Source: a virus. From it: a DNA stretch of 42,068 bases. Under the pieces are notes generated by a model. It did no database searches and was not told where the DNA came from. It saw only the letters and a list, made by a program, of their open reading frames with translations. The stretch covers positions 1-42,068 of IMG/VR virus record IMGVR_UViG_3300031227_006312. One strand, given 5' to 3'. Position numbers and translations under genes: made by a program. This document shows positions 6,982 through 42,068 of the stretch, piece after piece (the first letter of the stretch is position 1; every line of letters begins with the position of its first letter).

Positions 6982-7590
6982 ATGGATAAGGATGAAGCAG
7001 TAATCAAGTGGTACCAGGAGATGTACAGGTTGATGTGGTCTATGGCATGGCAATACACCAACCCACGTAGGATAGCTATGTCTCCAGATGATATCTTTGC
7101 AGAGTTGTCGCTGGAGTTAGTGAATGTGGTGTACAAATACTTCATTGACAAAGATGGTGTTGAGATGAAGAGGATTTTGATTACATCATTGCGCAATCGT
7201 TGTTTGGATCTTGTTAAGTATGAGTATTACACACATCGCAAAGAATCTGCTGATATGTTGAGTTTGGATGCTGATGTTCGTGATGGTGATGCAATGTCTG
7301 AATGGTTGGTAGAGGCAGCTACTCAGTTCAACTATTTCGATCTGTCTGGGTTGTTAGACGCGTTGTCTGATGATGGAAAGGCACTGATTCATGAAGTGCT
7401 GGAGCCGAGTCCCAGATTGAATTTGCAAATAGATATGTCAATCACTCGTAAAAGACATGTATCACCAAAAGGATGTTGGAAAGTGCAGTTGACGCCACTA
7501 ATGTTGCGTCGGACATTGGGGTGGGATAAGTGCAGATTTGAAACAACATGGGTAGAAGTACAGACTGTTTTGTATGCGGTTTGTATATAG
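6982..7590 (+). CDS. sigma-70-family-like transcription factor
   Basis: The N-terminal half looks like sigma region 2: YRLMWSMAWQYT, then SPDDIFAELSLELVNVVYKYF (compare the DDxxQExF helix), then ILITSLRNRCLDLVKYEYYTHR, matching the helix and recognition segment of region 2.2-2.4. Region 4 is less clear; LSDDGKALIHEVLEPS followed by an insert and LTPLMLRRTLGWDKCRFETTWVEVQTVL could be a divergent helix-turn-helix. 202 aa fits an ECF-sized factor. It starts one base after the VWA stop. The first TGCGGTTT-type promoter element lies inside its last codons, which makes it the natural candidate to recognise that element. Confidence 0.65.
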   Translation: MDKDEAVIKWYQEMYRLMWSMAWQYTNPRRIAMSPDDIFAELSLELVNVVYKYFIDKDGVEMKRILITSLRNRCLDLVKYEYYTHRKESADMLSLDADVRDGDAMSEWLVEAATQFNYFDLSGLLDALSDDGKALIHEVLEPSPRLNLQIDMSITRKRHVSPKGCWKVQLTPLMLRRTLGWDKCRFETTWVEVQTVLYAVCI

Positions 7591-12625: not shown

Positions 12626-12643
12626 TGCGGTTTTGTATAGTAC
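12626..12643 (+). promoter_or_regulatory. phage promoter element, copy 2, abutting the tRNA
   Basis: TGCGGTTTTGTATAGTAC ends exactly one base before the first base of tRNA-His (12644). If TATAGT were a normal -10, transcription would start inside the acceptor stem. Either the start is closer than usual, possibly giving a tRNA with no 5' leader, or the element is used differently. Confidence 0.75.
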
Positions 12644-12715
12644 GGGATTGTAGTTCAACGGTGAGAACATGTGGTTGTGGCCCACATAATTGCGGTTCAA
12701 GTCCGCACAGTCCCT
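12644..12715 (+). tRNA. tRNA-His (anticodon GTG)
   Basis: Full cloverleaf by eye. Acceptor GGGATTG (12644-12650) pairs with CAGTCCC (12708-12714) with one G-T. D-stem GTTC/GAAC, anticodon stem TGTGG/CCACA with loop TTGTGGC, so the anticodon GTG is at 12677-12679. T-stem TGCGG/CCGCA has loop TTCAAGT. The variable loop is 4 bases and CCA is not encoded. Base -1 is C and base 73 is T, whereas most bacterial tRNA-His have G-1 paired with C73, so the usual identity element is missing. Confidence 0.92.
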
Positions 12716-15338: not shown

Positions 15339-15866
15339 ATGACACAACAACTTGGTAAGTATGAGTTTGATGTTGGCAGTGATGTATCAGAGTTGGATTT
15401 GGATGCACTGATCCCTATTTCTGATGATTTGAACAAAGAGTTCTCAAATCAAGCAGCCACATATGCGTATGTTGCAATGCTGGGTGCAAGGTCAGAAGCT
15501 GTGTGGCGTGATTCCAAGAATGAGTTAGAGAAGGCATCTGCCGTGGCATACAAGAGATCCCGAGAAAGATTGGAGGCAAACAATACCAAAGTCACGGAAA
15601 GTATGGTTAATTCAGACAAGTTGTTGCGACCAGAGTATATGGAGGCGGTTGAGTATGAGATAGGTTGTCATGAGCAATATTTGGTGTTTCGTGTGCTTAC
15701 CAGGTCTTTCGAGCAAAGAGCTCAAATGTTGATCAGTTTGGGAGCTCATTTGCGATCAGAGGCAGAACAGACTGGGATGTTGATAGCTGATGTGAAGAGG
15801 AAGTTGCGAGATATACCCAAGAATGGTGTCGCACGTAATGGCAATGTTGATAGTAATGCTGGTTGA
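15339..15866 (+). CDS. coiled-coil protein, possible recombination accessory factor
   Basis: 175 residues, largely helical and charged, with ERLEANNTKVTESMVNSDK and a later FEQRAQMLISLGAHLRSE segment. Proteins of this style are often found beside phage single-strand-binding or recombinase genes, but I cannot name a family. AAGGAG at 15324-15329 is 9 bases from ATG 15339 and only 3 from ATG 15333, so 15339 is preferred. The junction holds an AATGATAAT motif (15332-15340) that contains the start. The gene directly precedes the single-strand-binding protein, fitting a mediator role by position only. Confidence 0.6.
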   Translation: MTQQLGKYEFDVGSDVSELDLDALIPISDDLNKEFSNQAATYAYVAMLGARSEAVWRDSKNELEKASAVAYKRSRERLEANNTKVTESMVNSDKLLRPEYMEAVEYEIGCHEQYLVFRVLTRSFEQRAQMLISLGAHLRSEAEQTGMLIADVKRKLRDIPKNGVARNGNVDSNAG

Positions 15867-15868
15867 TG

Positions 15869-15890
15869 TGCGGTTTTGTATTGTATACTA
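15869..15890 (+). promoter_or_regulatory. phage promoter element, copy 3
   Basis: TGCGGTTTTGTATTGTATACTA, starting just after the preceding stop (15864-15866). AAAGGAG at 15892-15898 and ATG 15908 follow, 39 bases from the element's first base. Confidence 0.75.
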
Positions 15891-41375: not shown

Positions 41376-41442
41376 ATGTCTTCTTTGGGGATTAGTGGTG
41401 ATCTACTGGATCCTTAGCGATTTCGTTTGCGGTTTTGTATAG
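41359..41442 (+). CDS. 27-residue membrane peptide
   Basis: ATG 41359 (or 41356) follows GGAG at 41348-41351 and overlaps the previous gene, copying the arrangement of that gene's own start. The peptide begins MNEKIECLLWGLVV and is one hydrophobic helix; it ends CGFV-TAG inside promoter copy 7, so the promoter element also supplies its stop. A small membrane peptide is plausible; no family can be named. Confidence 0.45.
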   Translation: MNEKIECLLWGLVVIYWILSDFVCGFV

Positions 41443-41446
41443 TGTA
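41428..41446 (+). promoter_or_regulatory. phage promoter element, copy 7
   Basis: TGCGGTTTTGTATAGTGTA. It has no long gene downstream: it faces the structured non-coding region, so it probably drives a non-coding RNA. Preceded by ATTTCGTT, like copy 6. Confidence 0.75.
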
Positions 41447-41571
41447 TCACCTGACTGTAAATAGTCAGTGTTTCACCTAATCGTATGTTGTGTAGTATCA
41501 GGCAATCATAGGAGGGAGATAGAGCCAATGTTCTAGCAAATGCGTCACCAGTAGAGTATATGTACAGGAAC

Positions 41572-41626
41572 TCTTGAACCTCATTGCTAATCGACTATAT
41601 GTAGTCAGAAGTAGTGGGGTTCAAGA
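41572..41626 (+). ncRNA. long stable hairpin in the non-coding region
   Basis: TCTTGAACC (41572-41580) pairs with GGTTCAAGA (41618-41626), continued by TCATTGCT (41581-41588) with AGTAGTGG (41610-41617) using some G-T pairs: 17 pairs in a row. Inside, GACTA/TAGTC (41593-41606) closes a TATG loop. Both-strand symmetry beyond chance; no T-run follows. Confidence 0.7.
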
Positions 41627-41638
41627 ACACAAGAGCAA

Positions 41639-41666
41639 GGAATAAAGGTAGCAAACTACCTTATCC
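41639..41666 (+). ncRNA. second hairpin of the non-coding region
   Basis: AAGGTAG (41645-41651) and CTACCTT (41656-41662) form 7 pairs over a CAAA loop; bulged A's allow GG/CC to lengthen the stem. It lies 13 bases after the long hairpin. Confidence 0.6.
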
Positions 41667-41820
41667 ATGTAGTGCGCTTCCTGCAGCCCCAGTATAATGG
41701 TAATGCAGTGTATGTATGCGTGTATGTGTCATATGTTGGTGGTAAGTGGTGTTGTCAAAGCGCAATGATAGGTAGGAAAGGCTGGGTGTTGCGTTAGAAA
41801 AGCAATCTCCTGCGTAAGAC

Positions 41821-41919
41821 TGGCATAAAGGGGAAAGTGGAGGAGAGTGTGAATGATAATATAGATTGGCATAAAGGGGAAAGTGGAGGAGAGTGTGAAT
41901 GATAATATAGATTGGCATA
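41821..41919 (+). repeat. 46-bp perfect tandem repeat with minigenes
   Basis: Two identical 46-base units (41821-41866 and 41867-41912) plus the first 7 bases of a third. Each has GGAGG (41839-41843, 41885-41889) 9 bases before ATG-ATA-ATA-TAG (41853-41864, 41899-41910) and one AATGATAAT motif. Each unit could be translated as Met-Ile-Ile, like the lambda bar minigenes. An iteron-type role is an alternative. Confidence 0.85.
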
Positions 41920-41939
41920 GTCCTACCATAGAGTGTGTG

Positions 41940-42053
41940 TATGAAACATACGAGTATCCCAGTGAAACATACGATCAGCATAATCCTATGTAAGAGTGCT
42001 TCGTTCTAATGTAGGAATACCACAGTGAAACATTAGATAATGATAATCTTATG
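41940..42053 (+). repeat. degenerate TGAAACAT repeats at the right end
   Basis: TGAAACATACGA occurs at 41942-41953 and again at 41963-41974. A longer unit, CAGTGAAACAT ... ATAATC.TATG, recurs at 41960-41990 and 42023-42053, the second copy containing AATGATAAT. No gene is seen up to the window end (42068). It could be a replication, packaging or regulatory site; nothing in the sequence decides. Confidence 0.6.
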
Positions 42054-42068
42054 CTAGATAGCCACGTT

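Follow-up and report, generated by a model that had tools for sequence, protein, structure and literature searches.

A probable structured untranslated RNA downstream of a promoter-like box in an uncultured phage genome

Results and discussion

The window (the whole stretch of DNA analysed here, 42,068 nucleotides) is a single 42-kb record of an uncultured phage. Near its end, a promoter-like box is followed by a gene-free stretch that, judged from sequence, is well supported as a structured untranslated RNA made from a phage-lineage promoter, because the box is conserved, the stretch has no coding signal, and it contains the most extreme strand-specific fold in the window. We tentatively read this stretch as a structured 5' leader whose transcript would run past the window end, and give that reading a probability of slightly under one half. 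The features on which the analysis rests are as follows.

6982-7590, + strand: sigma-factor-like protein that may read the box (PHROG 351 'RNA polymerase sigma factor', E 3.6e-4, residues 12-57)
12626-12641, + strand: box copy, 2 nt upstream of the tRNA-His gene at 12644-12715
41428-41443, + strand: promoter-like box TGCGGTTTTGTATAGT, a repeat copy in the window whose core also occurs in the related sequences G007 and L012
41444-41820, + strand: gene-free, transcribed-looking stretch, with no ORF carrying a coding signal before about 41830; it may extend past 42068
41451-41468, + strand: 5' hairpin of 7 pairs with loop UAAA, 7 nt past the box (-8.2 kcal/mol, z -3.6)
41545-41670, + strand: structured core, with the strongest folding in the window (-45.6 kcal/mol, z -7.1)
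41572-41626, + strand: long hairpin of 17 contiguous pairs (3 G-U), capped by a further apical stem of 5-7 pairs
41645-41662, + strand: short hairpin of 7 pairs with loop CAAA (z -4.0)
41673-41764, + strand: distant 7-pair stem, not above chance (z +0.4)
41817-41908, + strand: tandem duplication of 46 bp (98%)
41883-41993, + strand: doubtful small ORF of 36 aa with a GTG start

The window and its relatives

Nearly all genes of the window lie on the + strand, and they include helicases, a DNA polymerase, a recombinase, a terminase and one tRNA-His. Searches with the DNA polymerase and the terminase returned relatives at 27-62% identity, the closest IMG/VR records having 53-62% residue identity to one or the other protein. 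The most useful relative was G007, a genome of 77,500 bases (77.5 kb) with roughly 35-60% protein identity to the window and much of its gene order. The first 123 bases of G007 are identical to its last 123, indicating a complete genome that is circular or terminally redundant. The proteins neighbouring the RNA region (439, 118 and 876 aa) had no relatives in IMG/VR, so that no syntenic copy of the region could be retrieved.

Two other kinds of repeat were seen in these genomes. The sequence AATGATAAT occurs 32 times on the + strand of the window and twice on the - strand, where order-4 Markov simulations give 0-7 copies. Twenty of the 32 + strand copies are in frame within genes and encode Asn-Asp-Asn; this tripeptide was observed 21 times against 1.6 expected, with 20 of the 21 using the exact AATGATAAT DNA. 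G007 has 14 copies on the + strand and 1 on the - strand, G001 has fewer, and more distant relatives have none. Between 28923 and 34612, a GSGNFGHRGRPGLVGGSG-type peptide is repeated in several neighbouring proteins, some of them ADP-ribosyltransferase-like by eye, and the same type of peptide is scattered through G007 and G001.

The promoter-like box

The initial annotation placed a promoter copy ahead of the region, and the box at 41428 is indeed an exact match to the repeat at 12626, 23700 and 38591. Together with near-copies at 15869 and 19655, these make six near-identical copies in the window, every one on the + strand and intergenic; a degenerate site at 253, if counted, would make 41428 'copy 7'. 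Four copies precede protein genes, one precedes the gene-free stretch after 41443, and one precedes tRNA-His, which shows that the box can stand before a stable RNA gene. In G007 there are nine sites with the box core CGGTTTWGTATA, in the form CGGTTTAGTATA (one is AGGTTTAGTATA), located on both strands and always oriented toward the following gene, tRNA or hairpin. L012 has a single core site, upstream of the orthologue of the window gene at 15863. Co-directional boxes before genes or RNA genes, six in the window, nine in G007 and one in L012, are the pattern of a phage-lineage promoter, and that the box is kept at roughly 35-60% protein identity speaks for its being functional.

We also searched IMG/VR for exact matches. 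TGCGGTTTTGTATAGT was found in 7 unrelated contigs, and GCGGTTTAGTATACTA matched G007 only, with two matches. GCGGTTTAGTATAGT was found in G007 and in other contigs, about half of which have 23-bp tandem arrays; these other contigs have no proteins in common with the window. Within such 23-bp-spaced arrays, GCGGTTTAGTATAGT was seen in the unrelated phage contigs L079, L082, L084, L086, L087, L092, L096 and L100, and in L079 and L087 the array lies upstream of a gene that by eye resembles a DnaG-type primase.

The best candidate for a reader of the box is the sigma-like protein at 6982-7590, which has an orthologue in G007. Its profile found no solved relative, and its structure model (pLDDT 45) was too poor for use. 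PHROG and Pfam searches of large G007 proteins revealed no phage RNA polymerase. A search for a T7-type polymerase had no positive control and shows little. Promoters directed by phage sigma factors exist, of the T4 gp55 or SPO1 gp28 type. The window resembles these systems in having a short conserved box that contains a TATAnT element and precedes many genes, along with a sigma-like gene. It differs in that in several cases the next element begins only 0-2 nt past the box: the window's tRNA-His is one case, ribosome-binding sequences at L075 3784(-) and L029 20142(-) are others, and at L073 7429 it is a start codon. The RNA must therefore start within the box or upstream of it, a poor fit to the usual -10 element.

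Coding signal and the end of the window

In agreement with the initial annotation, we found no convincing gene past 41443, and no frame within 41393-41690 has a coding signal. The only candidate for a co-directional gene downstream, before the window ends at 42068, is the doubtful ORF at 41883. We consider it very improbable that the stretch is the remnant of a small protein gene, whose traces would be the ORFs, short or frameshifted, that follow about 41670 (41672-41797, 41837-41902 and 41883-41993). Some codon scores past 41690 are positive, an NDN motif occurs in frame as in other genes of this phage, and the 41883 frame contains similar 20-residue repeats; however, all three + frames rise together after 41690, reflecting a G-rich strand, every frame is broken by stops, and the core at 41545-41670 is without coding signal. 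Between 41817 and 42056, just before the contig end, the 46-bp tandem duplication is succeeded by a 63-nt tandem repeat that has diverged, and these repeats may be the reason that the assembly stopped there.

Folding of the gene-free stretch

The core at 41545-41670 ranks first of 3,996 segments (126 nt, both strands), with a regression z of -5.2 and a shuffle z of -6.9; the best value elsewhere in the window is -3.3. Its folding exceeds that of dinucleotide shuffles and is strand-specific, as expected of a structured RNA, with z -7.1 on the + strand and z -2.3 on the - strand. The hairpins at 41572-41626 and 41645-41662 both contribute to this fold. The longer one had been described earlier as a 17-pair hairpin, and we recovered it with all 17 pairs contiguous; the surrounding 41560-41640 has a folding energy of -29.8 kcal/mol (z -5.7). 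Stems of 17 pairs are not rare in themselves, as 12 occurred in 24 shuffled genomes and 3 occur in the real one. What makes this hairpin stand out is its position after the box, its strand bias and its clustering with other structure, rather than its length.

Four paired elements had been proposed for the region, among them the 17-pair hairpin and a distant 7-pair stem. Three hairpins, at 41451-41468, 41572-41626 and 41645-41662, fold better than shuffled sequence. The distant stem enclosing 41673-41764 can be drawn but was not confirmed, since 125 of 200 shuffles fold as well. For this stem and the pieces tested from there to the window end, z ranged from +0.4 to -1.2, at most slightly better than shuffled sequence. 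The structured core ends near 41672; the gene-free stretch continues to the window end. At the other side, the first 100 nt past the 41428 box are mildly structured (z -1.7), and the core begins approximately 100 nt downstream of the box. The tip of the long hairpin, GACUAUAUGUAGUCAG, resembles the 5' hairpin at 13 of 16 bases, and the tips of the two have GACUnUAnnUAGUCAG in common, which is perhaps a repeated binding site.

The same symmetry could belong to the DNA. The stretch might have no RNA function and be spacer DNA with dyad symmetry; in that case the palindromes at 41453 and 41593 would serve a regulator as DNA sites, and the region would be decaying or repeat-rich junction DNA. The two related palindromes GACTnTAnnTAGTC occur at full match only in this region, the downstream part consists of tandem repeats, and long hairpins are also present in G007 gaps that lack genes and are remote from boxes. 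We nevertheless judge this explanation unlikely, because the long stem needs its three G-U pairs, which hold only on the + strand and would be unpaired in DNA or on the - strand (z -2.3 there versus -7.1).

Known RNA families and homologue searches

The region had been said to match neither a tRNA nor a tmRNA, and this was borne out: ARAGORN and Rfam (RF00005 and RF00023) gave no match in 41376-42068, the only match in the window being the tRNA-His at 12644-12715. Rfam as a whole gave the region no match at the gathering threshold and, with E up to 10, three chance matches only, none of them to GOLLD or ROOL. Identity as a tRNA, tmRNA, GOLLD or ROOL is thus ruled out by Rfam and ARAGORN, and an integron attC site by eye, as there are no R boxes. 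GOLLD and ROOL are large ornate phage RNAs (PMC12286853). Like them, the present region is phage-encoded, gene-free, structured and of obscure function, in a phage that also has a tRNA. It differs in its lack of an Rfam match even at E = 10, in a structured core of only approximately 230 nt, in its distance of 29 kb from the window's tRNA, and in its simple hairpins, whereas complex pseudoknotted folds are described for ROOL (PMC12286853).

Sequence homologues of the RNA region were not found beyond the window by megablast and blastn against phages, blastn against plasmids, or blastn against 23 related records. The initial annotation had looked to a covariance search across related phages; our covariance model of 41545-41670, run against 741 kb of relatives, matched only the window itself. 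It seems distinctly unlikely that the region represents a class of phage non-coding RNAs not described before, with a phage-specific promoter and 5' and long hairpins carrying the same tip GACUnUAnnUAGUCAG, that would act in trans via a phage or host protein.

Leader or stand-alone RNA

In G007, very stable hairpins begin 2-7 nt past the box at three of the nine boxes, each in a leader 49-155 nt long before a gene. The 100 nt past these three boxes have z -6.1, -3.8 and -3.3, values below -3 being found at 2.2% of random places. These leaders (L029 6305, L074 15551 and L075 11682) share with the window the same box and stable + strand hairpins downstream. They end at a gene, whereas in the window the core lies approximately 100 nt past the box and no gene follows within 625 nt, and they have no sequence similarity to the window's RNA region.

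One of the three G007 leaders, at L074:15572-15640 directly past its box, is a tRNA-like RNA with a 14-pair acceptor-like stem, a small hairpin and a T-arm with loop TTCGAAT, but without an anticodon arm (z -5.6); it has a weak mascRNA-like Rfam match (E 0.44). Further structures were observed in the relatives. Two very long hairpins lie in gene-free gaps of G007 (L029:12391-12516 and L075:3907-4032): one has approximately 30 contiguous pairs, is G-U rich and is specific to the + strand, while the other is long, G+C-rich and located between divergent boxes. In the relative G008, a gene-poor structured stretch downstream of the terminase (L030:12540-12985, z -3.0) contains an embedded weak tRNA (Rfam 31.5 bits).

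The initial annotation took the region for a phage-encoded small RNA. A stand-alone non-coding RNA of about 230-400 nt, with its own promoter and acting by base pairing or protein binding, would account for about 390 nt without coding signal, for a strand-specific fold ranked first in the window, and for two hairpin tips sharing GACUnUAnnUAGUCAG, as a repeated protein site might; the same box also lies 2 nt before tRNA-His and so serves RNA genes. The small-RNA reading is partly supported: the conserved box, the lack of coding signal and the fold stand, but they do not establish a discrete non-coding gene. An intrinsic terminator, which a stand-alone small RNA should have within a few hundred nt, is absent from the + strand of 41376-42068, although the 3' end of such an RNA may also be made by processing or by a Rho-type ending. 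Phages, plasmids and IMG/VR relatives yielded no homologue, and the analogous G007 structures lie in gene leaders. We therefore rate a stand-alone RNA as somewhat unlikely, but as the main rival to the leader.

The structured 5' leader is preferred because the G007 hairpins past the box sit in gene leaders and because of the missing + strand terminator. It is also supported by the box, which keeps its position and orientation both in a distant relative and upstream of a tRNA, by the extreme + strand-specific fold, and by the sigma-like gene in both the window and G007, with no phage RNA polymerase among the large G007 proteins searched. Counting against it are the length, at least approximately 390 nt and probably more than 600, versus 20-50 nt past the other window boxes; a downstream gene not seen within the window; the z of only -1.7 for the first 100 nt; and the lack of a homologue, hence of covariation.

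Under the leader reading, the sigma-like factor would direct host polymerase to the box at 41428-41443, where transcription would start. The first 230 nt or so of the RNA would be untranslated and folded into the 5' hairpin, the long hairpin and the short hairpin, and the transcript would continue beyond 42068, perhaps reaching the next block of genes. Its hairpins might protect the 5' part against ribonucleases, provide a site for binding or processing ahead of the first gene, or do both.

Phage genomes from metagenomes contain many gene-free stretches that annotation passes over. In this one, a lineage-specific promoter and the window's strongest fold come together in such a stretch. If it is transcribed, it would provide a marker RNA for the phage lineage. 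It would also allow a test of whether RNAs made from this promoter regularly begin with protective hairpins, which three G007 leaders suggest.
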